A stretch of DNA of 64,000 bases, taken from Pelagomonas calceolata. Lineage: Eukaryota; Sar; Pelagophyceae; Pelagomonadales; Pelagomonadaceae. Positions within the stretch are counted from its first letter, which is position 1. Each line of letters opens with the position of its first letter. Location of the stretch: NCBI GenBank assembly GCA_918797485.1, contig CAKKNE010000004.1, positions 2,542,001 to 2,606,000 of the forward strand, given 5' to 3'. The position numbers were made by a program, and so were the translations under genes. Shown here in pieces: positions 1,591-63,927 of the stretch. The notes below the pieces were generated by a model, which saw only the letters and a list, made by a program, of their open reading frames with translations, was not told the DNA's origin and did no database searches.

Positions 1591-1614
1591 GCTAGTGTCT
1601 TACAGGCCGCTAGC
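1591..1614 (+). promoter_or_regulatory. Palindromic GCTAG promoter motif, copy 1
   Basis: Full-length copy: GCTAGTGTCTTACA followed by GGCCGCTAGC. It lies in the 476-base spacer between divergent start codons 1318 (-) and 1795 (+). Nothing else in that spacer looks like a gene. Confidence 0.6.
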
Positions 1615-1794
1615 TTGGCCCGCGTTTTGACTTTAAGAGCAGCTAGTGGTGGCTGTGATCGACCATCTGCGTCATACGCGACAGCACTGGCTCTCCATCG
1701 CTGCGACGCAGCGCCGTGACGCGAAAACGCTGCTCAAAAGCATCTCTATTGCTCAGTACAGCTGCCTGCCTTGTTGAGTGCTTAAATTTGAAAG

Positions 1795-3354
1795 ATGAAG
1801 CAGCAGTCCCTCCTCTCCTTGTGGGGCGCGAAACCGAAAGCCAGAAAAGCAACAGCCGGCGGCAAAGAAAACGCAAGGAAGCAGAAACGCGTCGCGCAGC
1901 CGGCCGAGCCGCCACGGGCGCCGGCCGAGCCGGCTCCAGCCGAGCCGCCGGCCGCCACGCCGCCCCCGCAAGCACAACCACCAACGGAGGACATCCCGGT
2001 CGAGAGACCAGCGGGCGCCGAGGGCATCGACCGCTCGAGCGGCGCCCTGGCGCGCGCGGCCGACCCGGTGCAGCGCGCGCGGGCGGCCGCGGCGGCCGCG
2101 CAGGCGACGGTCGTCCTGCCCGCGCACGACGGCCTGTCGCAGTACGAGCGCGAGCGGCTCGGCCGCATCGCGCGCAACGAGGCGTTCATGCAGTCCCTCG
2201 GCCTCGGCGGCGGCCTCGCCGGCGCGGCGCCGGCGCAGCGGCGCCGCGCGCCGCGGCCGCGCGCGCCGCGCGCGCCGGCGGGCCCCGCGCGGCGGTCGCC
2301 GCGCCTCGCGGGCGCGCCGGCGCCCGGCGACGCCCCTGGCAGCACCAACGACGGTGAGACCGCGAGCGCGGCGCCGCCGCCGCCTCCCACGGAACCGTCG
2401 GCCGTCGCGCCCTACCTCGCCCCGGCCGGCGCCGTCGACGTCTCGGGCGAGGACGCGACGACGTTCGCGGACGACAAGCTCAAGCGGGTCTACGCGGTCG
2501 CCGCGGCCGGGCGCCTCGTCGCCGCGGCCGGCCAGGGCGGCCGCGTCGCCGTCTTCTGCGGCCGCGCGGGCGCAGCGCCGCTCGCGTCGTTCAAGGCCCA
2601 CGGCGGCTGGGTCGGCGGCTGCGGTTTTATTGGAGCCGACAAGCTGCTCACGGCGGGCAACGACGGCCTCGTGCGCCTCTGGGACTGCGCTTCTTCTCAA
2701 AACGGGACGCTGACCAAGGTCGCCGAGGCGCAGCACGCGCGCGGCATCTGGCGCCTGGCCTGCCGCGGGGCGACGGCGGCCACGTGCGCCAAGGACGGGT
2801 GCGTCGTCGTCTGGAGCGCCGCGGCGACGGCGCTGCACGAAAGTAGAAGGTTGGAGGTGAGCGACGAGGGCTCCGTGCGGTCCGTGGCGCTCACGGATCA
2901 GGTGGTGGCGGCGGCGGCGGACGACGGCCGCGTGACGGGCTGGGACCTGCGGAGCAGCGCGCGGGCGTGGGCGCTCGACGCGCACGCCGACGGCGCGCAG
3001 TCGTGCGCGTTCCGGCCCGGCGACGCGTCGTTCGTGCTGACGGCGGGCGCCGACCGCGCCTGCAAGCTCTGGGACCTGCGCTCTTCATCAAAGCCGGTGC
3101 GCGCGTTCGACCAACATCATAGAACGGACGCGCGGCGCCGGGCGATGCACCACCCGGCCTGGCTGTCCTCCACGACCTTCGCCGTCGGCGGCGAGGGGTC
3201 GGAGCGGCTCGCGTTCTACGACGCGACCTCGGGCGCGCTGACGGCGAGCCTGGCGCTCGGGGCCGACGCGACGGCCGTCGCGCGCGTCGACGCGGCGACG
3301 GTCGCCGTCGCGACGGAGGCGTGCGACGGGGTGGCGCTCCATGCCGTCGCGTAA
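1795..3354 (+). CDS. WD40 protein, WDR76/CMR1-like DNA-damage factor
   Basis: 519 residues. The extreme N-terminus (MKQQSLLSLW) resembles a PCNA-interacting PIP box (Q-x-x-L-x-x-aromatic). A basic, proline-rich linker follows, then a segment YERERLGRIARNEAFMQSLG, the conserved pre-propeller element of WDR76/Cmr1, and a PRRSPRLAG-type basic patch. From about residue 215 to the end is a WD40 propeller with clear WD dipeptides (VRLWD, VTGWD, CKLWD). Family knowledge: Cmr1/WDR76 binds damaged DNA and works in genome maintenance and protein quality control in the nucleus. The start is the first in-frame ATG and carries the PIP-like motif. The 3' end converges on the HAD-like gene, 26 bases away. 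Confidence 0.75.
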   Translation: MKQQSLLSLWGAKPKARKATAGGKENARKQKRVAQPAEPPRAPAEPAPAEPPAATPPPQAQPPTEDIPVERPAGAEGIDRSSGALARAADPVQRARAAAAAAQATVVLPAHDGLSQYERERLGRIARNEAFMQSLGLGGGLAGAAPAQRRRAPRPRAPRAPAGPARRSPRLAGAPAPGDAPGSTNDGETASAAPPPPPTEPSAVAPYLAPAGAVDVSGEDATTFADDKLKRVYAVAAAGRLVAAAGQGGRVAVFCGRAGAAPLASFKAHGGWVGGCGFIGADKLLTAGNDGLVRLWDCASSQNGTLTKVAEAQHARGIWRLACRGATAATCAKDGCVVVWSAAATALHESRRLEVSDEGSVRSVALTDQVVAAAADDGRVTGWDLRSSARAWALDAHADGAQSCAFRPGDASFVLTAGADRACKLWDLRSSSKPVRAFDQHHRTDARRRAMHHPAWLSSTTFAVGGEGSERLAFYDATSGALTASLALGADATAVARVDAATVAVATEACDGVALHAVA

Positions 3355-3380
3355 TATTGTTTATGGTGAACAGGATAACA

Positions 3381-4481
3381 TTACGCCAAAAGCGGCCCCA
3401 GCAGCTCCAACCGCCGCTGCTCGCACTCACGAATCCGGTCGAGAAACCACCTCTGGTCGCGCACGGGCAGCAGCGTGGGCACGCGGACGAGGTAGGCGCC
3501 GTGGAGAGCGCGCGTCGCGGGCCCGTCCAGCGGCTGGAAGGCCTCGCCCGGCGCCGAGCGGCACCGCGCCGCGACGATCGACTTCCGGTCGGAATTGCGA
3601 ATGTGGTCGTCGAAAAAAATGTGGTGGCAGTCGCTGCCGCGCGTGATCCAGAAGGGTTTACCGGCCGCCGGCGCCTCGTCGTGCTTGGCCCACCAGGCGT
3701 AGTCGTCCCGGATGACCGTGGCGCTCCGCGGCTCCTCCATCAACGCGACGGCGGCGGCTTCGTCGAGGCACGCGCCGCGGCCGTCGTCGTTCAGCGGCGG
3801 CGTTAGCGTGTAGCGGCCCTCCGCGTCGTATTTGCCCGCGAAGATGCGGTCGCGCTGGACCCAATCCGGCGCTTGTTGTGGGGCCTTTACGGTCGGGTGG
3901 CGGCCGGCGATCCAGGCGCGCAGAGCTAGGGCGACGGTCGGGCCGTCGGAGCCGAACGTGCGGATCACGAGGGACACGTCGCGCCCGGAGTCTAGTAGAA
4001 CCCTGAGCGTTTCGAAGAACGCGGGCAGGAAGCGGTGGTGCTGCCCGTCGTCCGTCTTGAAGCATGCATCCCAGTCTCCAGGCGGTAAGCGTAGCTGTGC
4101 AGCGAGCTCCTGTTTTATCCCAGAGAAGCGCTTGAAGGTCTCCGTGAACGTCTTGCGGTGCACCTCGTCCCAGCGAAACGCGCGCGAGCCGTCGTCGGGC
4201 TTCTCCCACCGCAGCCACAGCGCTTGCTCGGGGTCGCCCCTGTCGTCGTGTAGTGACACGCCGTCTCGCCACTCGAGCTCGTCCGGCGCCGCCGCACCGT
4301 CTTTCCACTCGTCGTGCAGTGACGCACCGTCCTTTCGTCGCACGAACGCCGTCTTGGCGAGCATCTTGTTCAGCACGTCCTCGAAGCTGTCGCCGCCCGC
4401 GGGGTCCGCGACCATGATCGTCTCGTTGACGTCGAAATGTAAGACGAGGCGCGGTGCAGCGGATGTGGTGAGGCTGGCCAT
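3381..4481 (-). CDS. HAD-like hydrolase domain protein
   Basis: About 366 residues from ATG 4481 (a second ATG lies five codons upstream at 4496). An early LHFDVNETI fits HAD motif I with the second Asp replaced by Asn. SLVIRTFGSD near the middle fits motif II, with Thr after a hydrophobic strand. IFFDDH near residue 290 fits motif IV acidic residues. It may be a phosphatase-like or inactive HAD protein; substrate unknown. No signal peptide or transmembrane segment is apparent. The motif I substitution (DxN instead of DxD) would remove the usual acid/base aspartate of phosphatases, so activity is uncertain. Confidence 0.5.
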   Translation of the reverse strand: MASLTTSAAPRLVLHFDVNETIMVADPAGGDSFEDVLNKMLAKTAFVRRKDGASLHDEWKDGAAAPDELEWRDGVSLHDDRGDPEQALWLRWEKPDDGSRAFRWDEVHRKTFTETFKRFSGIKQELAAQLRLPPGDWDACFKTDDGQHHRFLPAFFETLRVLLDSGRDVSLVIRTFGSDGPTVALALRAWIAGRHPTVKAPQQAPDWVQRDRIFAGKYDAEGRYTLTPPLNDDGRGACLDEAAAVALMEEPRSATVIRDDYAWWAKHDEAPAAGKPFWITRGSDCHHIFFDDHIRNSDRKSIVAARCRSAPGEAFQPLDGPATRALHGAYLVRVPTLLPVRDQRWFLDRIRECEQRRLELLGPLLA

Positions 4482-4898
4482 CTTGTTTTGCAGCACGCAC
4501 GATGTCTTATTGCAGGACGCGCGCTGTGTCGATCAATGTGGTAATAGCGATCACAAAACACGCACTATCAAGTGTGGGAGTGATCAATGCGCTGATCTAA
4601 TTGCCTGCCGGCAGAGGCTGGGGGCGGAGATGCTTGACGAAGTTTCTGCGGGCCCACGGATCGGCGGGCCATCCGAGCACTCCTGGCGAAGAGTCCTAGA
4701 TGGCCATTGCTTCGTGTGACCGGTAGCTTTGCGACACGGGTTTTGCACACAGAGATTTTTTGTTGCAAGGCCTGGGGCGTAGTTGACGCTTGGGGCGGCC
4801 TAAGCTCGTCTCTATCAATAAATAAGACGCGTCAAAGCCCTGACCACGCCTGTCGCGCCGCGGGCGACGACAAAAGCCAAATCTGCAGGTTCGGCTAG
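4482..4898. other. Spacer between HAD-like gene and AGC kinase
   Basis: About 417 bases between the divergent HAD-like gene and the kinase reading frame. The first exon of the kinase should lie here, but I could not find one that joins in frame. No copy of the GCTAG palindrome is seen. Only weak short ORFs are present. Confidence 0.4.
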
Positions 4899-6047
4899 CC
4901 TGCCGGCGTTGCATCCGGCGCCGCCGCGGAGCTGTCGGCGGCGGCCGAGGCCGTCGCGGCGAAAAGGGCCTCGCTGAACGAGAAGGGCAAGGTGACGTTT
5001 GAAGACTTCGAGCCCCTCAAGTTATTGGGCGTGGGCGGCTTCGGCTCCGTACTACTCGTGCGGAAGAAGGACGGCAAGCAACTCTTCGCGCTCAAGGTGA
5101 TGAAGAAGGCTACGTATGCCAAGAACCGGTTGTCCGAGCACGCGTTTTTTGAGCGGAATCTGATGCTGGTTGCCAGGCATACGTTTCTCGTGAGGCTGAG
5201 ATATGCGTTCCAGAGTCGAAGGGACTTGTATTTAGTGACGGATTACTTCGCTGGAGGAAGTCTGGAGGACGCTCTCAAAAGAGTAGAAGACAGAAAAGGC
5301 TTAGGTCGAGACGCGGCTCGGTTCATCGTCGCGGAGCTGTCGCTAGGCTTGGACTACTTGCATGCAAGGGACGTCCTACACCGAGATATAAAAGCAGCAA
5401 ACGTTCTGTTAGATACGGAGGGCCACGCCCACTTGTGTGATTTTGGCCTCGCCAAATGTGTGGAAAACAACAACCAGGGCCCCAAAAGATCCTTCGCCGG
5501 GACGGTGGAGTACATGGCGCCCGAATTGTTACGTAAAGGAGACGAGGCGCCGTCGCCTGCCTTGGATTGGTGGGCCCTCGGCGTTTTGTTAGTAGAAACG
5601 TGCCAGGGCAAGACGCCTTTTAGGGCTTCTACTCCTAGACAGTTGATGCTGAACATCATCCGCGAGGCGCCGCAAATTATCGGGGACGACGAGAAATTTA
5701 GGTCAGCCGTCGAGAAGTTGTTGCATAAAAGGGCGTCGCGGCGCTTGCGGTCGGCGGCGCAGCTGGCGAAAAGACGCTTCTTCGAGCCTTTGGATTTCGC
5801 CAAGCTCGAGCGCAAGGAGCTCGTGCCGCCGTTCACGCCGCGCGCCGGCCGCGTGCCGAACGTGCCCGATCAGGGTTTGGTCAAGAAGTTCGGGCCGCAC
5901 CGGCCGAGCGACGGCGACTCGCCCCAGCAAAAGGGCGGGTCCGACGAGGTGTCGCTGTCCTTCAAGGGCGAGCAGTTCCAGGGCTTCTCGGTCTTCGCGT
6001 CGCCGGCGCCGCCCGTACGTCGCAAGAGCAGTAAGGATCTCAAATAA
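4899..6047 (+). CDS. AGC-family Ser/Thr protein kinase (5' exon unresolved)
   Basis: The kinase frame has an in-frame TAG at 4896-4898 and then stays open with no ATG before the catalytic domain, so a 5' exon is needed; TAG at 4896 could itself be the 3' splice site. From 4992 the domain has a GVGGFG glycine loop, ALKVMKK lysine, HRDIKAANVLL catalytic loop, DFG, and a GTVEYMAPE activation segment. It ends with an AGC tail: FQGFSV fits the hydrophobic motif FxxF(S/T). Known for the family: basophilic kinases controlled by PDK1 phosphorylation. The likely T-loop Ser lies in KRSFAGT. A second AGC kinase lies at 31600. The subfamily is not assignable by eye. Confidence 0.8.
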   Translation, partial: PAGVASGAAAELSAAAEAVAAKRASLNEKGKVTFEDFEPLKLLGVGGFGSVLLVRKKDGKQLFALKVMKKATYAKNRLSEHAFFERNLMLVARHTFLVRLRYAFQSRRDLYLVTDYFAGGSLEDALKRVEDRKGLGRDAARFIVAELSLGLDYLHARDVLHRDIKAANVLLDTEGHAHLCDFGLAKCVENNNQGPKRSFAGTVEYMAPELLRKGDEAPSPALDWWALGVLLVETCQGKTPFRASTPRQLMLNIIREAPQIIGDDEKFRSAVEKLLHKRASRRLRSAAQLAKRRFFEPLDFAKLERKELVPPFTPRAGRVPNVPDQGLVKKFGPHRPSDGDSPQQKGGSDEVSLSFKGEQFQGFSVFASPAPPVRRKSSKDLK

Positions 6048-6077
6048 GGACTAGTCACCGATTCACAATATATCACA

Positions 6078-7568: not shown

Positions 7569-7720
7569 AGTTTGCTGAAGGCTGTGTTAATCAAAGCAGC
7601 GCTCTCAGAGAGTAACCAGGCGGCCGCACCGCTCACAGATGGCTGCACTGCCTCCAACGTAGAGCCTTATCGTTGCTATGCGGCCGCACCGAGCTCCTCC
7701 CGCGAATTATGGAGATGCGG

Positions 7721-7744
7721 GCTAGCGGCCTGTAAGACACTAGA
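7721..7744 (-). promoter_or_regulatory. Palindromic GCTAG promoter motif, copy 2
   Basis: GCTAGCGGCC followed by TGTAAGACACTAGA on the + strand. It lies between the divergent starts of the SMR gene (7568) and the M16 protease (7933), a 364-base spacer with no other recognised feature. Confidence 0.6.
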
Positions 7745-7932
7745 ACAAGCCGCGGCGCCTTTCCGCGCGTAACTGAGCTTCCTGTTGCACGTACGGCACG
7801 CAGCGCGCTTTTTAAAAGCAGCTCATAGCTTGGCGAAGCCTTGCTTTTAAACGCGGCGCGCCAGACGCCGTGCCCACAGAGATTGGTGGTGGCGACCAAA
7901 TCAAGGCAAATCGCCCAGACGCCACAGCAGCC

Positions 7933-11490: not shown

Positions 11491-11523
11491 GGGCGTAAAT
11501 AAGTATCCTCCTTAGTCGCCTCA

Positions 11524-13197: not shown

Positions 13198-13470
13198 GGT
13201 TTCGCGCGGTTCCGCGGTCTCCAGCGGTCGCGGCGACGTCGCGCAGGCCTCCGGGCCCGGTTGTTGGGCGGCAACGCTCGCGCGGTTTCGAGTGGGCTCA
13301 AAAGCTCTGCTAGGCGGCACACTCGCTCCTGCGGCGCGGCGTCGGTGTGCGGCTTCGAAGCTGGTCCCACAGCCTTCGCAGTAATGATAGGCGATCTTCC
13401 GGACGTGCCAGGCTTGCAGCGCTTGCAAATCCCTAGCTCTCAGGCCTTGGGCAGTTTGAGCTGTAGCTTT

Positions 13471-13491
13471 GCTAGTGTCTTACACCGCTAG
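13471..13491 (+). promoter_or_regulatory. Palindromic GCTAG promoter motif, copy 3
   Basis: GCTAGTGTCTTAC then ACCGCTAG, a version with a shorter spacer. It lies about 275 bases upstream of the DEK-C/TFIIS-like gene start (13197) and 65 bases past the end of SPCS2. Confidence 0.5.
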
Positions 13492-13555
13492 AAAACGGCG
13501 CACGCATCGCTCCCCACGCCATCGCCGCGAGTCCGAGCGCTAAGATATACCACTA

Positions 13556-14116: not shown

Positions 14117-14341
14117 CGCTCAGGTGTCGCCGCGGCGGCGTTCCGTCGCGCGCGCGCAGAGCGTGGTCGCTCGCCGGCGGCGGCTGTAGGGTTGCTGTCG
14201 CTGCACTCGCTGCCGAGTGGTGTGGTTGGCCGCAGCGCTGGACTTTCTGGCACGTAGAGTGCTGTAAGCTGTGCCCTGCTATGAACAGCGCTATGTGCAG
14301 CTGTGCTGCAGAGTTTTTTTTGCGCTGCTTGTGTAAGGATG

Positions 14342-14365
14342 CCTAGTGTCTTACAGGCCGCTAGC
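14342..14365 (+). promoter_or_regulatory. Palindromic GCTAG promoter motif, copy 4
   Basis: CCTAGTGTCTTACA followed by GGCCGCTAGC, upstream of SPCS2 in a 486-base spacer that also receives the 3' end of the first CCCH gene. The rest of the spacer shows nothing recognisable except the word AAGAGCCATAATCTAA near 14511, repeated around the CCCH copies. Confidence 0.55.
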
Positions 14366-14602: not shown

Positions 14603-16057
14603 TCAGAGAGGAGGCCTCGGCGGCGCGCGGGGGTCATACGGCGGCCGCGGCCGCGGCTGTGTGGGATACGTCCCGGGGCCCGGCGGCGGCGCGCCGTGCG
14701 CGTATCTCGGCGGCCCGTACCTAGGATCCGGCGGCCGCGGGGGCCGCGGGACCGACGCGTACGGTGGCGGCGGCGCGCCGTAGCCTCGAGGTACAAGCTG
14801 TGGAACGCCGTACCCGCGTGGCGGCCCCGGCACCACGGCGTACGGCGGCCGCGGGGCGTACGCCGGCGGTCGCGGCACCGCGCGCGGCGGCATCGCCATC
14901 GCGGGCAGCATGTAGGCGTCCGGCGGCGGCGGCGACAGGCGCCGCGGCGGTGGCGGCGCCGTCGGCGCCAGCAGCACCGGGGCCTGGGCCGCGAACGAAC
15001 CCGGCTCGCGCAGGACCTGCTGCTTGAGCACCTCGAACTCGGCCGCCGAGAGGCTGCCGCTGTCGCGGAGGGCGCGGAGCTGCTCGAGCCGGCTCACGAC
15101 GTCGGTCGGCTCGCCCGGCGGCTCGTCGGGCTCGCGCGGCCGGAGCTCCTCCTGCGCGCGGACCGACCCGCTTTCGCGCCGCCGACGCGAAGAGTTGATT
15201 TTTCCGCGCGGAAGACTACGGCGCTGTGCGCGTAGGAGCAGCTCACGCCGTAGGGGCACGTGCCCGCGCCGTAGCGGCACATGCGCGTCTTGTACTTCTT
15301 GTCCTGCGTCTTCGCCGGCGGCGGCCGCAAGTACTGGAGCTCCTCGACCTGCGTCGGTGGCGTCGAGCGGGTCCCGCGCCATCGGCGCGACGCGTCGTCG
15401 CCGCGTCTATGGCGTCGAGTGCGTCCACATCATCGGCACGACGCGTCGTCGCGCGCGGGGGCGACGGCGGCGCTCTCGGCGGGACGCGTCGTCACACACA
15501 CGAGACTCGCGAAGGCGGGACGCCGGCCCGCGGACCGTGTGCGCGTACTGGCAGCGGCCGTCCGCATAAAAGGGGCACTCCGAGGCGGCGTAGCGGCAGG
15601 GCTTCGTCTTGTATTCAGGGAGCCACCAGCGCGCCTGCGGCGGCCTCAATTCGGACTCGTCGTGGGCGAAGAAGCAGCGGCCCGGGCCGTAGGGGCACTT
15701 ATCGCCGTAGATGCAGATGCGCGTCTTGTACCTGGGTGCGTAGACTTACACTCTTTTTTCGTAAACGCGACGGACGCGGGACCCTTGCTGCCGCTGCTGC
15801 TCGAAGGGCTCCGCCTTGGCGTCGCCGGACCGCGGGTGGGTCTGGGTGAGCGAGAAGGCCGCGAAGTCCGCCGGCAGGGACGCGACCAGGTCCTCCTCGT
15901 CGGCCGCGGGCGCGGGTGCCTCAAGCGTTCGCGGGTCGGCGGCGCGCGGGTCCAGCCCTGACGGTTCATCTTGTTTCGACTCGTACGCCGGCTCCGGCTG
16001 CTCCGGTGTCTCCGCTGGTGCGGATCCGTCGGTGTTGGCAGCTGGTTCGTTCCACAT
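14603..16057 (-). CDS. CCCH zinc-finger protein with SHOCT-like domain, copy 1 (4 exons)
   Basis: Predicted exons 16057-15789, 15731-15536, 15348-15217 and 15151-14603 join in frame to 381 residues; an alternative start lies seven codons upstream at 16078. Three CCCH fingers each follow a TIS11-type YKT lead: YKTRIC, YKTKPC and YKTRMC, with C-x(5-6)-C-x(5-7)-C-x3-H spacing. A SHOCT-like helix pair follows (RLEQLRALRDSGSLSAAEF), then a Pro/Tyr/Gly-rich low-complexity tail. Family knowledge: such fingers bind AU-rich or other single-stranded RNA. Inferred: a post-transcriptional regulator, with a tail suited to condensates. Intron 15732-15788 is GC-AG; intron 15349-15535 is long only in copies 1 and 2. 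Splice sites are my predictions, supported by frame and by comparison between copies. Confidence 0.7.
15732..15788 (-). other. GC-AG intron present in copies 1 and 2, absent from copy 3
   Basis: 57 bases. On the minus strand the donor is CA|GCAAGG and the acceptor CCCAG|GT. Copy 3 reads straight through (CGGCAGTACAAG), so removal of exactly this stretch restores the paralogue sequence. The same intron in copy 2 is 18362-18418. Confidence 0.75.
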
Positions 16058-17242
16058 ACGAGGCTCGCGTATTGCCAATTACCCACGCTCAGCGTTAGCT
16101 CATTATTACTCACTCGGTACGGCTCGCGACGCAGCGCTTTCTTCCGTGAAGCATAGCGCACGTCTCAGGTTCCCCTTTCACAGCTGGAACCCACTCATCG
16201 TGCACCACAGCCGGCGCTGAGCCGCGTTTTAAGACCGGCTCTGATCGTCAGAGATAAAGGGGCGCCTGTGTTTACCAACTTCAAAACCCCTCTCGAACCT
16301 TATTTCAGGCCTCAGAGAAGTCCTGTAGCGGTATATCGGCAATAGTTGGAATTAGATCGGTTCCATTACTGAGCACATACCCTCTGTCACAGCAAAAAGC
16401 GAGTTCAACCAGCTTAATTGTTGACGAGAGGTCTGAAACGACGAGGACGCGCGCGCAGCAGCCATCCGCAACGAATCGTTGCCGCGCGCGTGGGCAAAGG
16501 GCGGTCTCGTTGCCCAAAAGCAGGGCAGCACTGGCAGTGGGTTCTGAGGGTTGCAACCCCGGCGCGCGCGCGAACGAAACGATCGAACAACGCACACGAG
16601 GCCTCGGAGCCAGTGTGTGCAAACGCGGTCTACAGACTGGCACGAGGACTCGATGATGATGAGGACCGTGTCGCGGACGCCGTCGGAGCGCGCGCAGCCG
16701 TCGCGACGACGTTCGTCGCGCCGAAGCGACGACGAGTCGACTGATCGACGACGCGGCGCCGATGACAACTCTACAACGACGACGAGGCCACACTTGACGA
16801 TCTCCGTGAGGCCGTAGAGAGACGCTCGAGGAGACGACGCGGGCGGCGCGGCGCGTGTTCGGTGGTGCGCACTCGCTCGCAGCGGCGATTAAGGAGGAGT
16901 TTCGATTCGCGCGACCGGCGCTCAGCGCTCGCGAAACGCCGCCCTAATGCTAGACGCCCGCCGGATGCAAGAGCCATAACCTAATACCGGCTTCGGGTCG
17001 CGCGTCGAAGTAAGGCGAAACGCGCGGCAAGGACGACCAGGCCGGCGGCTTCCTGATGAGTACACGGGCATAATCATTTATATATCAATAGCTATAGTTG
17101 GCGCTCGGGGATTCACTTCCTCCCAAGAAACTGGCTATTAACCCTCCAAGAGCCATAATCTAAATCTCTTATATACACGACTAGACACGAGTGGACTGGT
17201 GGCAAAGTAGCATCCGAATCCAAAAATTTCGCCGGATGGCTC
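16058..17242. repeat. Intergenic part of the 2.63-kb duplicated unit (first)
   Basis: About 1.2 kb upstream of CCCH copy 1 and downstream of copy 2. It is repeated almost exactly at 18688-19872 (offset 2630) and in decayed form at 21119-21910. It has short open frames on both strands, but the third copy breaks them, so I see no supported gene. The word AAGAGCCATAAYCTAA occurs near 16970 and 17148. Confidence 0.7.
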
Positions 17243-18687
17243 TCAGCGAGGAGGCCTCGGCGGCGCGCAGGGGTCGTACGGCGGCCGCGGCCGAGGATAC
17301 GTCCCGGGATCCGGCGGCGGCGCGCCGTAAGCGTATCTCGGCGGCCGCGGCGCCGCGTAGCCTTGAGGTGCGTACCCAGGAACCGGCGGCCGCCGTGGCG
17401 GCGGCGCGCCGTAGCCTCGAGGTACAAGCTGTGGAACGCCGTACCCGCGCGGCGGCCCCGGCACCGCGGCGTACGGCGGCTCGTACGCCGGCGGTCGCGG
17501 CACCGCGCGCGGCGGCATCGCCATCGCGGGCAGCATGTAGGCGTCCGGCGGCGGCGGCGACAGGCGCCGCGGCGGTGGCGGCGCCGTCGGCGCCAGCAGC
17601 ACCGGGGCCTGGGCCGCGAACGAGCCCGGCTCGCGCAGGACCTGCTGCTTGAGCACCTCGAACTCGGCCGCCGAGACGCTGCCGCTGTTGCGTAGGGCGC
17701 GGAGTCGCTCGAGCCGGCTGACGACGTCGGTCGGCTCGCCCGGCGGCTCGTCGGGCTCGAGCGGCCGGAGCTCCTCCTGCGCGCGGACCGACCCGCTTTC
17801 GCGCCGCCGACGCGAAGAGTTGATTTTTCCGCGCGGAAGACTACGGCGCTGTGCGCGTAGGAGCAGCTCACGCCGTAGGGGCACGTGCCCGCGCCGTAGC
17901 GGCACATGCGCGTCTTGTACCTCTTGTCCTGCGTCTTCGCCGGCGGCGGCCGCAAGTACTGGAGCTCCTCGACCTGCGTCGGTGGCGTCGAGCGGGTCCC
18001 GCGCCATCGGCGCGACGCGTCGTCGCCGCGTCGATGGCGTCGAGTGCGTCCACATCATCGGCACGACGCGTCGTCGCGCGCGGGGGCGACGGCGGCGCTC
18101 TCGGCGGGACGCGTCGTCACACACACGAGACTCCGCGCGAAGGCGCGGGACGCCGGCCCGCGGACCGTGTGCGCGTACTGGCAGCGGCCGTCCGCATAAA
18201 AGGGGCACTCCGAGGCGGCGTAGCGGCAGGGCTTCGTCTTGTATTCAGGGAGCCACCAGCGCGCCTGCGGCGGCCTCAATTCGGACTCGTCGTGGGCGAA
18301 GAAGCAGCGGCCCGGGCCGTAGGGGCACTTATCGCCGTAGATGCAGATGCGCGTCTTGTACCTGGGTGCGTAGACTTACACTCTTTTTTCGTAAACGCGA
18401 CGGACGCGGGACCCTTGCTGCCGCTGCTGCTCGAAGGGCTCCGCCTTGGCGTCGCCGGACCGCGGGTGGGTCTGGGTGAGCGAGAAGGCCGCGAAGTCCG
18501 CCGGCAGGGACGCGACCAGGTCCTCCTCGTCGGCCGCGGGCGCGGGTGCCTCAGGCGTTCGCGGGTCGGCGGCGCGCGGGTCCAGCCCTGACGGTTCATC
18601 TTGTTTCGACTCGTACGCCGGCTCCGGCGGCTCCGGTGTCTCCGCTGGTGCGGATCCGTCGGTGTTGGCAGCTGGTTCGTTCCACAT
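17243..18687 (-). CDS. CCCH zinc-finger protein with SHOCT-like domain, copy 2 (hybrid, 4 exons)
   Basis: Exons 18687-18419, 18361-18166, 17973-17842 and 17776-17243 join in frame to 376 residues. The architecture matches copy 1: three YKT-led CCCH fingers, a SHOCT-like helix pair, and a Pro/Tyr/Gly-rich tail. The 5' half, including both introns there, is nearly identical to copy 1. The 3' half (17113 to about 17900) is nearly identical to copy 3, including the extra RPPVPGYAPQGYA-type tail repeat missing from copy 1. The switch lies between about 17765 and 17942, inside the third-finger exon. This is what unequal crossing-over between two older genes would give. It shares the GC-AG intron (18362-18418) and the long second intron (17974-18165). 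Confidence 0.7.
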
Positions 18688-19872
18688 ACGAGGCTCGCGT
18701 AGTGCCAATTACCCACGCTCAGCGTTAGCTCATTATTACTCACTCGGTACGGCTCGCGACGCAGCGCTTTCTTCCGTGAAGCATAGCGCACGTCTCAGGT
18801 TCCCTTTTCACAGCTTGAACCCACTCATCGTGCACCACAGCCGGCGCTGAGCCGCGTTTTAAGACCGGCTCTGATCGTCAGAGATAAAGGGGCGCCTGTG
18901 TTCTCCAACTTCAAAACCCCTCCCGACCCTTATTTCAGGCCTCAGAGAAGTCCTGTAGCGGTATATCGGCAATAGTTGGAATTAGATCGGTTCCATTACT
19001 GAGCACATACCCTCTGTCACAGCAAAAAGCGAGTTCAACCAGCTTAATTGTTGACGAGAGGTCTGAAACGACGAGGACGCGCGCGCAGCAGCCATCCGCA
19101 ACGAATCGTTGCCGCGCGCGTGGGCAAAGGGCGGTCTCGTTGCCCAAAAAGGGCAGCACTGCCAGTGGGTTCTGAGGGTTGCAACCCGCGCGCGCCACGA
19201 CGAGCAACGATCGAACAACGCACACGAGGCCTCGGAGCCAGCGTGCAGTCGAAGTCGACAGACGGGCACGAGGACTCGATGATGCTGAGGACCGTGTCGC
19301 GGACGCCGTCGGAGTGCACGCAGCCGTCGCGACGACGGTCGTGTCGTCTTGAAGCGCTGACGAGAGTCGACTGATCGACGACGCGGCGCCGGTGACAACT
19401 CTACAACGACGACGAGGCCACGCTTGACGATCTCCGCGCGGCCGTAGAGAGACGCTCGAGGAGACGACGCGGACGGCGCGGCGCGTGTTCGGTGGTGCGC
19501 ACCCGCTCGCAGCGGCGATTAAGGAGGAGTTTCGATTCGCGCGACCGGCGCTCAGCGCTCGCGAAACGCCGCCCTAATGCTAGACGCCCGCCGGATGCAA
19601 GAGCCATAACCTAATACCGGCTTCGGGTCGCGCGTCGAAGTAAGGCGAAACGCGCGGCAAGGACGACCAGGCCGGCGGCTTCCTGATGAGTACACGGGCA
19701 TAATCATTTATATATCAATAGCTATAGTTGGCGCTCGGGGATTCACTTCCTCCCAAGAAACTGGCTATTAACCCTCCAAGAGCCATAATCTAAATCTCTT
19801 ATATACACGACTAGACACGAGTGGACTGGTGGCAAAGTAGCATCCGAATCCAAAAATTTCGCCGGATGGCTC
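18688..19872. repeat. Intergenic part of the 2.63-kb duplicated unit (second)
   Basis: Near-identical copy of 16058-17242, with a few substitutions and small indels (for example a short deletion in the run near 19150). No supported gene. Confidence 0.7.
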
Positions 19873-21118
19873 TCAGCGAGGAGGCCTCGGCGGCGCGCAG
19901 GGGTCGTACGGCGGCCGCGGCCGAGGATACGTCCCGGGATCCGGCGGCGGCGCGCCGTAAGCGTATCTCGGCGGCCGCGGCGCCGCGTAGCCTTGAGGTG
20001 CGTACCCAGGAACCGGCGGCCGCCGTGGCGGCGGCGCGCCGTAGCCTCGAGGTACAAGCTGTGGAACGCCGTACCCGCGCGGCGGCCCCGGCACCGCGGC
20101 GTACGGCGGCTCGTACGCCGGCGGTCGCGGCACCGCGCGCGGCGGCATCGCCATCGCGGGCAGCATGTAGGCGTCCGGCGGCGGCGGCGACAGGCGCCGC
20201 GGCGGTGGCGGCGCCGTCGGCGCCAGCAGCACCGGGGCCTGGGCCGCGAACGAGCCCGGCTCGCGCAGGACCTGCTGCTTGAGCACCTCGAACTCGGCCG
20301 CCGAGACGCTGCCGCTGTTGCGTAGGGCGCGGAGTCGCTCGAGCCGGCTGACGACGTCGGTCGGCTCGCCCGGCGGCTCGTCGGGCTCGAGCGGCCGGAG
20401 CTCCTCCTGCGCGCGGACCGACCCGCTTTCGCGCCGCCGACGCGAAGAGTTGATTTTTCCGCGCGGAAGACTACGGCGCTGTGCGCGTAGGAGCAGCTCA
20501 CGCCGTAGGGGCACGTGCCCGCGCCGTAGCGGCACATGCGCGTCTTGTACTTCTTGTCCTGCGTCTTCGCCAGCGGCGGCCGCAAGTACTGGAGCTCTTC
20601 GACCTGCGTCGGTGGTATCGAGCGAGTCCCGCGCGATGGGACGCCGGCCCGCGGACCGTGTGCGCGTACTGGCAGCGGCCGTCCGCGTAAAAGGGGCACT
20701 CCGAGGCGGCGTAGCGGCAGGGCTTCGTCTTGTACTCGGGCAGCCACCAGCGCGCCTGCGGCGGCCTTAATTCGGACTCGTCGTGCGCGAAGAGGCAGCG
20801 GCCCGGGCCGTAGGGGCACTTGTCGCCGTAGATGCAGATGCGCGTCTTGTACTGCCGCTGCTGCTCGAAGGGCTCCGCCTTGGCTTCGCCGGACCGCGGG
20901 TGGGTCTGGGTGAGCGAGAAGGCCGCGAAGTCCGCCGGTAGGGACGCGAGCGGGTCCTCCTCGTCGGCCGCGGGCGCGGGTGCCTCAGGCGTTCGCGGGT
21001 CGGCGGCGCGCGGATCCGGCCGTGGCGCTTCAGATTTGGACTCTTGCGCAGGTTCCGGCTGCTCCGGTGTTCCCGCTGGTGCGGAGCCGTCGGTGTTGGC
21101 AGCTGCTGCGTCCCACAT
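19873..21118 (-). CDS. CCCH zinc-finger protein with SHOCT-like domain, copy 3 (3 exons)
   Basis: Exons 21118-20657, 20603-20472 and 20406-19873 join in frame to 375 residues. The first two fingers are in one exon because the GC-AG intron of copies 1 and 2 is absent. The second intron is only 53 bases here (20604-20656), against 187 and 192 in the other copies, which carry an internal insertion of about 135 bases. Finger residues and the SHOCT-like segment are conserved, so the gene looks functional. The N-terminal region is more diverged (MWDAAAANTDGS). An upstream in-frame ATG at 21175 would add 19 residues. It is probably the oldest-diverged member of the trio. Confidence 0.7.
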
Positions 21119-23024: not shown

Positions 23025-23047
23025 GCTAGCGGTTGTAAGACACTAGC
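23025..23047 (-). promoter_or_regulatory. Palindromic GCTAG promoter motif, copy 5
   Basis: GCTAGCGGTTG then TAAGACACTAGC, upstream of the ankyrin-MYND start in a 359-base spacer. A short perfect palindrome around CCCGTCGACGGG lies about 50 bases further right, near 23097. Confidence 0.55.
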
Positions 23048-23169
23048 AAGCGCTCGTTCGCTCGAAGCGATGTGTAGGGCCGCAAGGTAACATATCCCGT
23101 CGACGGGATATGTTATACGGCACTTGGGCCGCAAGGGCGGTAGAACGCCGACCAAAACAACCACACACA

Positions 23170-34115: not shown

Positions 34116-34137
34116 GCTAGCGGCAAAAGACACTAGC
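34116..34137 (-). promoter_or_regulatory. Palindromic GCTAG promoter motif, copy 6
   Basis: GCTAGCGGCAA then AAGACACTAGC, 40 bases from the esterase start and 185 bases from the GlyRS start. Confidence 0.55.
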
Positions 34138-34321
34138 AAGCCAGGCGCAAGCCTCTTGCAATCGCCACTGCCGTACGTCGTCTGCGTGCAGCACAACGCC
34201 GTCAGAGCAGTGATTCATCACAGCAGCTGTCGCGCACAGCAGCATCGCTGCTTGCGAGAGGCCGTCGTGCAAGAGTAGCTCAAATCGCTGGAGAGCATAG
34301 CCAGCCAATCGAGCAGCAACC

Positions 34322-41820: not shown

Positions 41821-41958
41821 TGTTATGCTGGCGCTAGCGGATGCCGCGGCCGCTGAGGCATGTGCGCCATCATCAGAGAGAGTGCAGGTATGATGCGTGC
41901 GTGCGAGGCGGCTGCCCCGATGCCGCTTTCGGCTGCTTTCACGCCTTTTTTTTTCGTC

Positions 41959-41982
41959 GCTAGTGTGTTACATGCCGCTAGC
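41959..41982 (+). promoter_or_regulatory. Palindromic GCTAG promoter motif, copy 7
   Basis: GCTAGTGTGTTACATG then CCGCTAGC, in the 272-base spacer between divergent starts of the CAP-Gly formin and the YggT gene. Confidence 0.6.
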
Positions 41983-43770: not shown

Positions 43771-43898
43771 GATTTTACCAGGTCTCGTGCCGAACCTGTG
43801 GCTTGCCGGGAGTCTGGCGACACCGAAACTATCACTCTCGTTCGCCCCGTTACGTCTTTTCGCTATTTTCGCACTGTGGTCTGCCCAAGATTGCTCGA

Positions 43899-43919
43899 CT
43901 AGCGTTGTAAGACACTAGC
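43899..43919 (-). promoter_or_regulatory. Palindromic GCTAG promoter motif, copy 8
   Basis: CTAGCGTTG then TAAGACACTAGC, in the 346-base spacer between divergent starts 43770 and 44117. Nothing else recognised in the spacer. Confidence 0.55.
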
Positions 43920-44116
43920 AAGCACAGCTCGACCTTTGCCGCGGCGCTTGCCCTCGCTGTGCGCTTCTCGCTTGGTGCGAGTGTCACGGGCGTTGTTAAT
44001 TTGCACCGCTGCGCTGCTCCGAGGCTGCTCCGCCATCGCTGCGACCTGCGCGCGGAGTTATCACAAGGGTAGGTCAGCACTCTCAGTAGCTATTTTGGCG
44101 TCGGCGCGCGCTAAAA

Positions 44117-49854: not shown

Positions 49855-50088
49855 TTTGTCAAAGGGTGCGCTGCGGCAGCGTCCCTGTTAATGCCAATTT
49901 GGTGCGTTTATGCAGCAGCTCTGCGCTAGCGAGAGCAATATGGGATGAGCTTGTTATCGCTCGATCAAAGCCAGGATTGCGTGGGGTACGACGAGGGGTC
50001 ACGACGAGGGGTGTAATTATGCAGGTCTTGCTGCTTTTGGCTGCAAGAGGACGCGCTGGCAACTGGTTTTGCGTTTTGGAGAGCAACT

Positions 50089-50110
50089 GCTAGTGTGTCT
50101 ATGACTTAGT
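50089..50110 (+). promoter_or_regulatory. Palindromic GCTAG promoter motif, degenerate copy 9
   Basis: GCTAGTGTGTC then ATGACTTAGT; only the left half is well kept. It lies between divergent starts 49854 and 50261 (406-base spacer). Confidence 0.35.
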
Positions 50111-54076: not shown

Positions 54077-54100
54077 GCTAGCGTCGTGTAAGACACTAGC
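54077..54100 (-). promoter_or_regulatory. Palindromic GCTAG promoter motif, copy 10
   Basis: GCTAGCGTCGTG then TAAGACACTAGC, in the 468-base spacer between divergent starts of SFT2 and the exonuclease. Confidence 0.6.
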
Positions 54101-54160
54101 CCCAAAAGCAGGCTCGAGCGCCAAGCAATCGTCTAGCTGCACCATCAACTCATCGGAGCC

Positions 54161-54169
54161 TTATAAATA
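54161..54169 (+). promoter_or_regulatory. TATA-like box
   Basis: TTATAAATA, about 139 bases before the exonuclease ATG and 61 bases after motif copy 10. A tandem ACATTGATCA pair follows. Possible core promoter; unproven. Confidence 0.3.
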
Positions 54170-54307
54170 CTACATTGATCAACATTGATCAGCGCAGCCG
54201 AAGGGTCCAGCTTGGATCACCAGAACGCGCAAAGGCACACCCTAGCTGTGTACAGCACACCTCCTCGCGCCCAGCCGCGCACGTCTGCCAAGGAACGTCT
54301 CTAAGTA

Positions 54308-55372: not shown

Positions 55373-55402
55373 GTCCTATGTTGTTACACAATAATACAAA
55401 AT

Positions 55403-56497: not shown

Positions 56498-56500
56498 GGC

Positions 56501-56595
56501 TCTTTGCACCGCTAGTGTTCAGCGTCCGTAAAGTGCAGTTCTTTGCACAGCTAGCGTTCGGCGTGCGTAAAGTACAGTTCTTTGCACCGCTACCG
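56501..56595. repeat. 39-base tandem repeat at WD40 gene promoter
   Basis: Two full units (56501-56539, 56540-56578) and a partial third. Each begins TCTTTGCAC and holds GCTAG(T/C)G and GCGTAAAG-type words that echo half of the GCTAG promoter motif. Confidence 0.75.
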
Positions 56596-56764
56596 CTCTC
56601 TGCGCTGCGGCTGGCGTTTGCGAACTAGTCACCAACGTCACAAGGTGCAATGCTCTGGCTCACTTTTGAGAGTCCAGCGGCCCACAGCTGCTGTGCGCTG
56701 AGAACTGTCTAAATATTTTGGCCTTAGGCTGCGAGCGCGGCGCTTGTGTGAAAAGGCCAGGCTT

Positions 56765-56787
56765 CTAGTGTGTTACACGCCGCTAGC
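56765..56787 (+). promoter_or_regulatory. Palindromic GCTAG promoter motif, copy 11
   Basis: CTAGTGTGTTACACG then CCGCTAGC, between divergent starts 56497 and 57025. Confidence 0.6.
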
Positions 56788-57024
56788 AACAAGGCCTTCA
56801 ACTGCGTCTAGCTGCTTGCCCAAGCGCCAGATACACCGTTTGCGGCCTGACACAGCACGAAATTATCCCAGGCTTGCGTTGAGAACTTTCGTATAAGTTC
56901 GTGCTGCTGCTGTGATACACAGGGCATCTGCAGCCAGGAGCAACATTTATCGAGGAGTGCGGACACGCACCCGCAGCGTCGAATAACTCGTCGAGGTGTG
57001 TGTCTCGGACGACTAATCACAGCG

Positions 57025-57375
57025 ATGTCAAAAAAGAACCGACTCGCCGCGCGCCGAGAAGCCCACGAGCGCCTCTTGGAACGAGAACGGCAGCAAAAGG
57101 CCAAGAAGGAGGCGAAGCGCCTCAAGTTCCAGGCGCGGGCGCCGAAGAAACGATCTATCCCGAAGGGGCTCGTCCGAGGGTCGTCGCGCAACCCGGAGCA
57201 GTACGAAGAGGCGCGCCGCATCGTGAAGCTGCGCAAAAAGGCCGCGCGCACGGCGCCGAAGAAGATGGACCTCGAGAAGAGCGGCACCGAGAAGCGGCGC
57301 GCGGCGGCGACGGAGGGCCGGAAATCCGCGCGGCAGAAAATCATCGACAAACGGCGGTCGATGGAGTGTGAGTAA
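57025..57375 (+). CDS. Small basic protein, probably nucleolar
   Basis: 116 residues from ATG 57025 (MSKKNRLAARREAHE). Nearly half of the residues are Lys/Arg, in helical runs (RQQKAKKEAKRLKFQ; VKLRKKAARTAPKKM). No domain recognised. Composition suggests a nucleolar or ribosome-assembly factor. It ends 37 bases from the stop of the kinase-phosphatase gene. Confidence 0.6.
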   Translation: MSKKNRLAARREAHERLLERERQQKAKKEAKRLKFQARAPKKRSIPKGLVRGSSRNPEQYEEARRIVKLRKKAARTAPKKMDLEKSGTEKRRAAATEGRKSARQKIIDKRRSMECE

Positions 57376-57411
57376 GACTGTTAGATAAAGTTAGAGAAAA
57401 GCAAAGAGAGA

Positions 57412-60400: not shown

Positions 60401-61365
60401 AGCGCGGCCTCAAGCTCCGAGGCGCCAAAGCCATGCCGCGCCGCCGCGTCGTCGACGAGGTTCGCGCCGTCGCGGTGCACGAGGCCCTCGGCGACGACGG
60501 CTGCGACGAGGGCAAAGTATTGCTCGCGCGGCGACTGGGGGGCCGGCGCCTCGGGCTCGAGCGGGACGCCCGCCTGCGGCGTTCCGGGCGACGAGCCCTG
60601 CGAGAGCAGGGGCTGATCCGGGAAATCTGGCCGCGGCAAGTCCGGCCGCGGTGGCCGCGCTGCGGTCTCGGTCGCCCTTTCCCAGGCCTCGGCCACCGCG
60701 GCGGGCGCGGCGGGCGCCGTCGACGCGAGGTAGCTCGCCGGGATCGCTCCGCTGCCGCCGCGGCGCGGGCTGTGGACCTCGACCCAGCCGTCCTGGTCCG
60801 GCCCGCCCAGGACCTCGACCACCTCCTCGGCGTCGGCGTCGATCTGCCACGGCTCGTTCGCCTCCCAGGCGTGGGCGACCGTCGCGAGGACCCGGCCCGT
60901 CGCGAGCACGGGCTCGGAGGCCTGGCGCGTCGGTTGCGGCGGCTGCGGCGGCGGTGGCTGCGAGAGCGACGGCCGCAGCGGAGGCGGAGGCGGCACCGGC
61001 GCCGGCACGTCGAAGCTTAGGAGGTCCCCGACGGGCGTCGGCGTGATCGCCGAGATCCACCGCGCCGCGTCCGCCTCGGACTCGGCCGCGAAGTCCGGAC
61101 TGCGGCCCCCCACGCGGTCCACGAGGCGGAAGTAGACCGCGGCGGCACCGGCCTGCGGCGCTCGTCCCACACGCCGCACCTCGTCTTCGGTCAGTCGATC
61201 GATCAGCGTCGTTCCGGCGCGGATGTGGATCGTCGCCACTTCCCTGGCCTTGTTCGCGTCGTAGACGCGAAGTCGCCCTCCATTCACCTCGCACCAGCGC
61301 CTTTTCCATGTGCTGCCCCACAAAGTGCCCCCCTTCCTCTCCCACAGCCAGCCCTCTTGGGGCAT
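57412..61365 (-). CDS. PH, SH3, protein kinase and inositol 5-phosphatase fusion
   Basis: Exons 61365-59557, 59401-58075 and 58007-57412 join in frame to 1243 residues; the start is MPQEGWLWERKGG. PH domain (about 3-110), SH3 (about 160-215, HAWEANEPWQIDADAEE), helical region, then a Pelle/RLK-type kinase (about 430-730) with LGQGGFGRVYEG, VAIKRLE, VHGDIKSANIL and ADFGMAR. Then an inositol polyphosphate 5-phosphatase (about 770-1045): TLNCG, VAVTLQEV, GDLNYRIN, VPSYTDRVLF, SSDHKPV. A PH-like C-terminal segment follows. Inferred: couples protein phosphorylation to PI(4,5)P2/PI(3,4,5)P3 removal at membranes. The second intron (58008-58074) is my prediction; otherwise 57412-58101 would be a separate gene. 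Confidence 0.8.
59402..59556 (-). mobile_element. Introner in the kinase-phosphatase gene
   Basis: 155 bases. The 5' end of the element reads CTGTGTGGAAATCAAATTT. The 3' end has lost most of its terminal repeat (CCTAACACAG remains). Flanks GTCGCGCA and GTCACACA differ at two of eight bases and look like a target-site duplication. Using the GT of the left copy as donor restores a normal kinase segment (DPHY then VTHGRLGPTSDVYSFG). Confidence 0.8.
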
Positions 61366-61508
61366 TCTCTTGGGCTGCCCTCTTGTCTTGTTGGATATGC
61401 TGCGCACGGCCGCTCGACGTTCGTTGCAGGAACTCGACAGATGGGCTGCAGCGCCCCGACGACGCTGGGGCGAGCGCGTGCCGCTTTTTCCCACAAAAGC
61501 TCCTCTCG

Positions 61509-61530
61509 GCTAGTATCTTACTGCGCTAGC
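61509..61530 (+). promoter_or_regulatory. Palindromic GCTAG promoter motif, copy 12
   Basis: GCTAGTATCTTAC then TGCGCTAGC, in the 347-base spacer between divergent starts 61365 and 61713. Confidence 0.55.
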
Positions 61531-61712
61531 TCCTGGCCAAGGCAAAGTGCCCACCCTGGCCGCGCGAGCGCATACAGACGCGTTTAAGACCACGCGGGGC
61601 ACTACGTGCACATATTATTGACGTAAGTTCACAAGTTTTGCTGCCGACTGTCCAGCAAGGCTGTCCACCAGACACATTGCATCTGCACGCTCTGCACATC
61701 GGCACATCGGAG

Positions 61713-63662
61713 ATGGCGCGCGTCGCCTACCTCGTAGCCCTGGCCAGCGCCCTCGCACCAAACCGCTGGGACGCCCCGCCGCACACGTCGCGCGAGCTCC
61801 AGCGGGCGCTGGGCGCGTGCCCCACGGCCGACGCCGCCTGCGCGCTGCTGCAGGAGCGGGCAGATGACGGCAACGAGGTCAACGTCGCCGCGACGCTCGT
61901 CCGCGCCGCGCGCGAGGGCGCCTCGCGAAGTACGTTACGGTACCTTTACGGCGCGTGCCGCGCGTCGGCGGGCCGCATGGCGCCGCGCCAGCTCGCGAAC
62001 GCCGCGCGCGCGCTGCGCCTCGCGGACGACGACGAGACTGCTGAGAGAGAGGCCGCGCTGGTCGCCGTCTGCGCGTGCGTCGCCATGACGCCGCCCGCGG
62101 AGTGGACGAACGCGCGCGAGGTTGCCATGGCGGCCTGGGCCTGCGGCGACGCCTGCGCCAAGGGCCGCGCCGACGAGCAGGCGGTATACGCGCTGCGGAC
62201 GCTCTCGAACGCCGCGCCGCGGGGCTTCGCGGCGCGCGAGGCGAGCGACGTGGCCTGGGGCCTCGCTGCGGCGCGCGAGCGGCTGCTGCCGCCCGCGGCG
62301 ACGGACAACGCGACGGTCGCCGACGTCGCGGCCTTCCTCGACCGCCTCGCGGACCACGCGCGGTCGGTACCCTACGCGCCGCGCGACGTGGCGACGGCGC
62401 TCTGGGCCTGCGCGAAGATCGCCGAGGCGGTCGAGAGCTGTGTGGAAATCAACCAATGAGTTAGGTTATTGTCGCGTCGATGGCCTGGAAACTTCACGCC
62501 ATCGAGCAGACGCAGCTACGGAGAAAATATCGCGTCGATGGCGTGGATCGCCCGAAATTTGATGTCCGCACAGGACTGGCGCGCCCAGGCGGCTTCACTA
62601 CGAGCCGTCGCCGCGCTGCGCGCCAACGCGGACCGCATCAAGGGCCCGTGGCCGCCGCGCGACGCCGCGCAGGCGGCCGCGGCCGTCGCGAGCGCCGCCG
62701 TCGACGCGCCGGAGGTCCTCGACCGCGCGACGGCCGCGGCCGCGCGGGGCTGCGACCGCTGGTCGCTGCGGGACGTGGCCGACGTCCTCTGGGCCTGCGC
62801 GAGGCTGGATCGGCCGCCGGCCGCCGACGCCGTCGCGGCGCTCTGCGGGGCGCGTGCCGTCCGGCGGGCGAGCGACGGGGCGCCGCCGAACACGCGCGGG
62901 CGCGCCGAGCTCTGCAGCGTCGCCTGGGCGGCCGCGTGCCTGGCCCACGAATCGCCGCAGCACCTGGTCGCGGCCGTCGACACCGTCGCCGCGGCCCACG
63001 GGGCCTTGGCCGCGGACGCCGACGACGACGGCGCGCGCGACGTGGGCAGTTCGACGCTGGGCGACGCGCCGACGCCGCCCGGCGCGCCGATGGCGCGGAC
63101 GCGGCGGCTACGCGCGCTCCACCACGCGCGCCTGGCGCTGGCGGCGGCCGGCGCGTCGGAAGAGCAACTGCAGACAGTCGACGCCGCGACGACCAATGAA
63201 TTGAGGCGGGCTGCCCGCGCGGCCTGGACGAGGCGGCCGTCGGCGCCGTCGTCGCGGCACGAGGCCGTGTCCAAGGTACTCCGGGGCATGAAGGCGCAGC
63301 ACGGCGTCGTGGCGACCGCGCACGACGAGCACGGCGGCCTCGCCGTCGACGTGCTCGTACGATTGCCCGACGGCCGCGCGGTCGCCGTCGAGGTCGACGG
63401 GCCGTCGCACTTCTGCGCCGACGACCCGAAGCGGCCGCTCGGCCACACGCGACTCAAGCGGCGGCTGCTCGAGCACGCGGGCCTCGAGGCCGTGTCGGTG
63501 CCCTACTACGAGTGGGACCGCATCCCGCACTGGTCCTCGATGGAGCGCGAGCGCTACCTGCAGCGGAAGCTGGGCATCACGACGCGGCTCGTCTACGACG
63601 GCGGCGACTCGTCGTCGTTCGCGCCGCTCGAGGGCGAGCGGGGGGCGAGCCGGTTGGCGTAG
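61713..63662 (+). CDS. RAP-domain organelle RNA-binding protein
   Basis: Exons 61713-62429 and 62574-63662 join in frame to 601 residues across an introner. The start MARVAYLVALASALAPNRW suggests a signal peptide plus plastid leader. The body is a set of helical repeats with recurring DVAxxLWACA / EVAMAAWACG / DVLWACARL, as in FASTK/OPR-type proteins. The C-terminal 75 residues are a RAP domain (VAVEVDGPSHFC, LGHTRLKRRLLEHAGL, VSVPYYEWDRI, ERERYLQRKL). Family knowledge: organellar RNA maturation or stability. It is the last complete gene in the window. Confidence 0.85.
62430..62573 (+). mobile_element. Introner in the RAP-domain gene
   Basis: 144 bases. The element starts CTGTGTGGAAATCAACC and ends AAATTTGATGTCCGCACAG, the reverse orientation of the other two. 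Flanks GTCGAGAG and GACTGGCG are a weak target-site match. Two direct words GCGTCGATGGC lie near 62476 and 62532, and a CGATGGC...GCCATCG inverted pair sits between. Confidence 0.8.
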
Positions 63663-63902
63663 TCCTCCTTCCTTTTTTCCTGAGAGAGTAACGTTTGGTT
63701 TGTGTTGATGCAATGAGTGCGTACAACCGCGTGGGAAAAAAACAACACCGCAGCCATCCCCCGCCCTCACCCCTCCCCGCCCAATCCCATCCACTCTTCC
63801 CCTCCTCCCTCCCTTCCTCCGTCGTAACAACCCTATCATAATAATATATATATGACCAGTAGCGAACGGAACGATACTCAAGCGTGGCTGCTAAGCGGAT
63901 TC
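63663..63902. other. Spacer with long pyrimidine tract
   Basis: After the RAP gene stop. 63756-63822 is almost pure C/T, then an AT-rich patch ATAATATATATATG near 63842. No gene supported. Confidence 0.4.
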
Positions 63903-63927
63903 CTAGTGTGTTTAACAGGCCGCTAGC
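63903..63927 (+). promoter_or_regulatory. Palindromic GCTAG promoter motif, copy 13
   Basis: CCTAGTGTGTTTAACA then GGCCGCTAGC. The next gene is outside the window, so its downstream partner is unknown. Confidence 0.5.

Follow-up and report, generated by a model that had tools for sequence, protein, structure and literature searches.

A long two-armed element in upstream intergenic gaps of Pelagomonas calceolata, a probable site for a putative general regulatory factor

The window analysed here, a stretch of 64 kb of Pelagomonas calceolata DNA (C4:2542001-2606000), carries a recurrent DNA word of 20-26 bases in the gaps upstream of its genes. The first-pass annotation had placed a palindromic motif at 13 positions, all of which were found again, the one at 50089 in degenerate form. 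It had also assigned nine copies to gaps between divergent starts, three (13471, 14342 and 23025) to positions upstream of one tandem gene and one to the window edge, with none in coding sequence, and our own gene calls agreed with these contexts. Two alternative cores occurred, TCTTAC and TGTCGATA, the latter marking a minority class (class B) with the same arms. The elements of the window are as follows:

1589..1614, plus strand: class A element, spacer AGGC, between the divergent starts 1318 (minus) and 1795 (plus)
7721..7746, minus strand: class A element, spacer AGGC, between a divergent Smr-domain gene (minus) and an M16 peptidase gene (7933, plus)
13469..13492, plus strand: class A element, spacer AC, in a tandem gap upstream of a Med26/TFIIS-N gene (minus) and beyond the 3' end of SPC25 (minus)
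14340..14365, plus strand: class A element, in a tandem gap 226 bp upstream of the ATG of SPC25 (signal peptidase subunit, minus)
23025..23049, minus strand: class A element, spacer AAC, in a tandem gap 215 bp upstream of an ankyrin/MYND gene (minus)
34116..34139, minus strand: altered-core element (TCTTTTGC), between the divergent starts 34076 (minus, alpha/beta hydrolase) and 34322 (plus)
41957..41982, plus strand: class A element, GTGTTAC form, between a divergent formin/CAP-Gly gene (minus) and a gene on the plus strand
43898..43921, minus strand: class A element, spacer AA, between the divergent starts 43770 (minus) and 44117 (plus)
50087..50110, plus strand: degenerate class B copy (CTAGTGTGTCTATGAC-TTAG) with a broken right arm, between the divergent start 49854 (minus) and an SNF2 gene (50261, plus)
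54077..54102, minus strand: class A element, spacer ACGA, between a divergent Got1/Sft2 gene (minus) and a 3'-5' exonuclease gene (54308, plus)
56762..56787, plus strand: class A element, GTGTTAC form, between the divergent start 56497 (minus, WD40) and a gene on the plus strand
61507..61530, plus strand: element with left arm CTAGTA, between a divergent protein kinase/PH gene (minus) and the start 61713 (plus)
63900..63927, plus strand: element whose arms stand 12 bases apart, core TTTAAC, at the window edge

The left half of the element, with up to two mismatches allowed, matched 11 times in the window where 1.19 matches were expected (0 of 100 shuffles). The two-arm form with a varying inter-arm spacer fitted 12 of the 13 places, 50089 being the exception, and the site at 56765 and some others of the window were one base off at most. 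The consensus of 61 sites was TTG-CTAGTGTCTTAC-AKGC-CGCTAGC, with 18 near-fixed positions per site and conservation that stopped at the element edges; the gap between the left half and the right arm measured four bases in 44 of these sites, two in nine, three in seven and five in one. When 264 kb were searched for the arm pair CTAGYR...YRCTAG independently of the core, 43 pairs were observed against about 2.7 expected, and 8, 9 or 10 bases separated the arms in 36 of them. Coupling of the halves was also seen in the whole genome, where 2,331 of 2,723 left halves (86%) had a right arm 2-6 bases away. The arms are inverted repeats, so that the earlier description as palindromic holds in this respect; they are, however, non-identical (left CTAGTG/A, right CGCTAG), with a fixed difference at one position. 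The element does not consist of two identical half-sites, since the asymmetric form CTAGTG...CGCTAG numbers 2,331 copies and the perfect palindrome (CTAGTGTSTTAC...CACTAG) only 21, i.e. it is 111 times rarer. This fixed asymmetry argues against simple homodimer binding of a putative protein.

Copies were counted in 32,445,274 bases on 8 contigs, six large ones totalling 32.315 Mb and two small ones sharing the remaining ~130 kb; the published genome of strain RCC100 has 32.4 Mb on six nuclear contigs, organellar contigs of 90 kb (plastid) and 39 kb (mitochondrion), and 63.6% GC (PMC9481584). The strict form CTAGTGTSTTAC-N2-6-CGCTAG occurred 1,178 + 1,153 = 2,331 times and its reversed control 0 times, while the relaxed form CTAGTR-N8-10-CGCTAGC gave 3,278 matches against 11 for the reversed control. 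For class B, CTAGTRTGTCGATA-CGCTAG and close variants yielded 148 copies genome-wide (control 0). Scaling from the fuller set of sites in the 264 kb suggests an estimated total of roughly 3,300 to 5,000 copies. Site density in the window is roughly double the genome average, its 64 kb holding 9 strict matches where the whole genome has 72 per Mb. No match was found in the viral contigs scanned for the motif.

Location was determined in a sample of 264 kb, made up of the window and five 40-kb blocks, which held 34 sites scoring at least 18 and 202 kb of coding sequence according to our own gene calls. These were made from codon-usage segments trained on the DNA under study, take no account of UTRs and handle introns imperfectly. 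None of the 34 sites was coding. Divergent gaps held 22 of them against 13.6 expected by length (p 0.003), tandem gaps held 11, and a single site fell into a convergent gap, where 7.2 were expected (p 0.003); this lone convergent gap measures 3.3 kb and probably contains overlooked genes. The copies are thus not spread at random through genes and 3' spacers; a random spread was what the first-pass annotation had named as contrary to its reading. Of 45 divergent gaps, 21 had a site (for the 32 that lie outside the window the figure was 13), as did about 11 of 51 tandem gaps, some gaps containing two copies. More than half of the divergent gaps and some 80% of the tandem gaps were without a recognisable site, and the element is therefore not universal. 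The scan of the genome and the measurement of distances to gene starts, both proposed by the first-pass annotation, yielded thousands of copies and a median distance to the ATG of 219 bp, mostly 100-350 bp, for 77 sites placed by our gene calls, a set that includes loci fetched for carrying the motif. Within divergent gaps the position was central (fraction 0.53, sd 0.14, KS p 0.003). That both orientations occur, as had been claimed, was confirmed in the window and in the larger site set; relative to tandem genes they stood at 18:9, which is not significant (p 0.12), and neither is the longer distance to the gene on the left-arm side (p 0.09). AT skew of the outward strand was about 0 up to 60-90 bp from the site and about 0.2 beyond 120-150 bp, and from this skew transcripts probably begin some 100 bp from the site. 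TATAWA, as a potential partner element, preceded 2 of the 53 starts that have a site and 6 of the 88 that have none, numbers too small for a conclusion. The adjacent genes were functionally mixed and included WD40, M16 peptidase, SNF2, formin, SPC25, Got1, kinase and exonuclease genes.

A comparison with related species, likewise proposed at first pass, became possible when bacterial and archaeal genomes (257 Gb in all) were searched for the motif, which gave 12 matches. Seven of these lay in marine MAG contigs ('Spirochaeta' MED672 and TARA bins) with 80-96% DNA identity to the Pelagomonas genome; these contigs are contaminating DNA from near relatives. The orthologous gaps were fetched and aligned, and the element was kept in both species in all nine mapped gaps, a set that leaves out L041:2684, for which the Pelagomonas stretch compared is not the ortholog. 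As the loci were picked because the relative carries the motif, this number describes retention and not the rate of loss. In the four collinear pairs with MED672, the more distant relative, 84 of 91 site positions were identical (92%) versus 406 of 740 flanking positions (55%, a sum that omits one flank absent in Pelagomonas), which points to purifying selection on the element sequence. Changes within the element fell mainly in the spacer, at the C/G (S) position or at the outer edge and flank. At L034:5353 the element stood in the same place but was inverted between the species, and at L031:7907 it had shifted within the gap. Because one copy was inverted in place and one displaced, selection seems to act on the presence of the element in the gap and much less on its orientation.

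Taken together, the element looks like the landing site of a putative protein that would help to activate a substantial part of the gene set. It is probably an orientation-tolerant upstream site for a putative abundant general regulatory (pioneer-type) factor or stable complex; protein binding, chromatin opening or nucleosome depletion, the effect on transcription and the start positions are the parts of this proposal that we infer. The factor would recognise the left half CTAGTGTCTTAC and the right arm CGCTAGC as two modules, across a flexible gap of 2-5 bases. Sitting in the middle of the upstream gap, it would exclude nucleosomes and keep the gap open, and transcription could then begin at a distance of about 100 bp, to one side or to both. 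A single site might in this way serve both members of a divergent pair or, between tandem genes, the downstream one. Like the sites of the GRF class, the element is found in upstream gaps of many functionally unrelated genes and outside genes and, but for the one copy, convergent gaps. A more specific version is offered tentatively, and we incline slightly against it: a promoter system specific to the pelagophyte lineage, in which one putative factor, whose DNA-binding family may itself be undescribed, would recognise a long, bipartite, asymmetric site with flexible gap and two cores (TCTTAC and TGTCGATA), and in which a single central site would organise a third to a half of the divergent promoters.

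Much the same pattern would be left by a factor bound to time of day or condition if its gene set were very large, i.e. by a condition-specific or clock/cell-cycle transcription factor with a regulon of thousands of genes. The limited share of divergent and tandem gaps that carry a site would suit such a factor, as would an information content very high for a housekeeping motif; the central positioning and the occurrence of both orientations speak against it, and a general factor fits better than a regulon because the neighbouring genes are functionally mixed. We regard the regulon, the strongest of the alternatives, as unlikely. The first-pass annotation had left the choice between a transcription factor site and a bidirectional core promoter element. 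The site reading appears to withstand the tests of location and flanks, while the core promoter, which would position the pre-initiation complex directly, is not favoured and is in our estimate quite improbable. The strong preference for divergent gaps and the roughly symmetric arrangement of divergent pairs around the site agree with a core promoter; yet single tandem genes appear to be served too, both orientations occur, the ATG lies about 220 bp away with a spread of 100-350 bp, one copy has its orientation reversed in place from one species to the other, and the AT skew would put transcript starts some 100 bp off the motif and not at it. Slightly less probable again is a chromatin boundary, replication origin or recombination site between genes. 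A long, information-rich, bipartite site confined to intergenic DNA would be in keeping with any of these, and the inverted arms, the asymmetric core and the copy inverted between species give it a superficial likeness to a recombinase site. Convergent gaps, though equally suitable for a boundary or an origin, are nevertheless nearly empty, and the gaps with two copies likewise do not fit.

The remaining two explanations are both very improbable. If the element were the relic or cargo of a dispersed mobile element, this would account for a 160-bp repeat (R) beside some sites, which adjoins 4 class A-type sites out of 77 as well as two copies of class B; at L034:2038-2198 of the relative, R lies directly at the edge of the site L034:2199, whereas Pelagomonas has no R there. 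The consensus, however, ends at the element edges, and an all-against-all comparison of 300-bp flanks returned two small groups only, the larger of them reflecting R, with no general shared flank of the kind that the first-pass annotation had named as contrary to a binding site. R may flank a site on the left or on the right, with no constant distance, and since the site is present without R, the element is independent of it. A mobile-element repeat family was rejected, most copies having no shared sequence beyond the site. The inverted arms might alternatively form a hairpin in the 5' UTR or nascent RNA, as CUAGUG and CGCUAG can pair on one strand with one G-U. Compensatory changes are nevertheless absent, left arms of the form CTAGTA retaining CGCTAG, and the fully pairing palindrome is the rare form. 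The element also occurs in both orientations, and in divergent gaps one gene at most could transcribe it. The general regulatory site remains the reading that we prefer.

To our knowledge, no known motif matches the sequence of the element. A literature search for the motif string, pelagophyte promoters and palindromic divergent-promoter motifs returned no description, most subscription journals lying outside its coverage, so that an earlier description is possible; the words motif and promoter do not occur in the Pelagomonas genome paper (PMC9481584). Pelagomonas calceolata has been described as one of the ocean's most abundant eukaryotes (PMC9481584), and one long element that recurs at the starts of thousands of genes gives direct access to the study of its gene regulation. 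The element could be used for factor pulldown, for the calling of promoters and starts and in expression vectors. It also allows one to ask how a new promoter grammar comes to span a whole genome and how it changes over time, with one copy inverted and one moved between close relatives.

Among known systems, Abf1 sites are bipartite, as is the element described here. The yeast GRF sites (Abf1, Reb1, Rap1) lie in the gaps upstream of genes in a compact genome and are associated with nucleosome-depleted regions and divergent transcription (PMC9481977, PMC2897762). The Pelagomonas element resembles them as a putative sequence-specific site with the same kind of placement in a likewise compact genome but is apparently unrelated in sequence, much longer and provided with a flexible gap. 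The vertebrate CGCG element TCTCGCGAGA is described at bidirectional promoters that lack a TATA box and belong to broad gene sets (PMC6192621). Occurrence at broad gene sets is shared with it and with similar bidirectional CpG-island promoter motifs, whereas the CGCG element is a short perfect palindrome and the Pelagomonas element is long, asymmetric, divided into two core classes and dissimilar in sequence. Within the stramenopiles, the oomycete INR and FPR core promoter elements are abundant and act at the TSS (PMC3599244). The Pelagomonas element differs from them in lying upstream, at variable distance and in both orientations, and is like them an abundant promoter-associated element of a stramenopile.

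A dispersed intergenic repeat of 160 bp, beginning TGTTACGGTGCTAGGACTAGTGGGCGG, was found beside the promoter element; 271 candidates were obtained, at least 40 of which were scored as copies. In all six clear copies the repeat was adjoined by the element, with either the main (class A) or the second (class B) core. Copies are listed below (L034, algal contig from the 'Spirochaeta' MED672 MAG; L003, L043 and L045, examined stretches; C1, Pelagomonas contig).

L034:299-455, 160-bp repeat
L034:2050-2172, 160-bp repeat
L003:1345-1465, 160-bp repeat
L003:2700-2769, 160-bp repeat
C1:3002871-3002978 (within L043), 160-bp repeat
C1:3021293-3021418 (within L045), 160-bp repeat

Directly at the edge of one element, the related alga carries the repeat and Pelagomonas does not. 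An Rfam search of L034 gave no match. The repeat is probably a small non-autonomous mobile element with a preference for open promoters. Between the two related species, the element itself was also observed in flipped orientation at an unchanged place (L034:5351-5373 versus L069:287-308).

Pelagomonas-like algal contigs (80-96% identity) were present inside prokaryote MAGs serving as species representatives, i.e. 'Spirochaeta' MED672 (L031, L033, L034 and L041) and TARA bins; L032, L035 and L036 are further contigs of this kind. These contigs are eukaryote contamination of the reference set.

The element was absent from a 40-kb block of Pelagomonas contig C2, nearly all of which is open frame encoding a giant protein.

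C2:1509444-1540000 (L047-L050), minus strand, one open frame of more than 10,000 codons, running up to the block edge
Window 14603-18700 and 19743-21118, minus strand, gene segments, apparently tandem duplicates

Exon scores and spacings match among the apparent duplicates (15.2-15.8, 18.1-18.6 and 20.1-20.6 kb), and the element was not found between these copies.

The second core class, CTAGTRTGTCGATA...CGCTAG, occurs at 148 places in the Pelagomonas genome (the first being C1:98945 and C1:215566), with arms identical to those of the main class; it may be the signature of a separate group of genes or of another factor.
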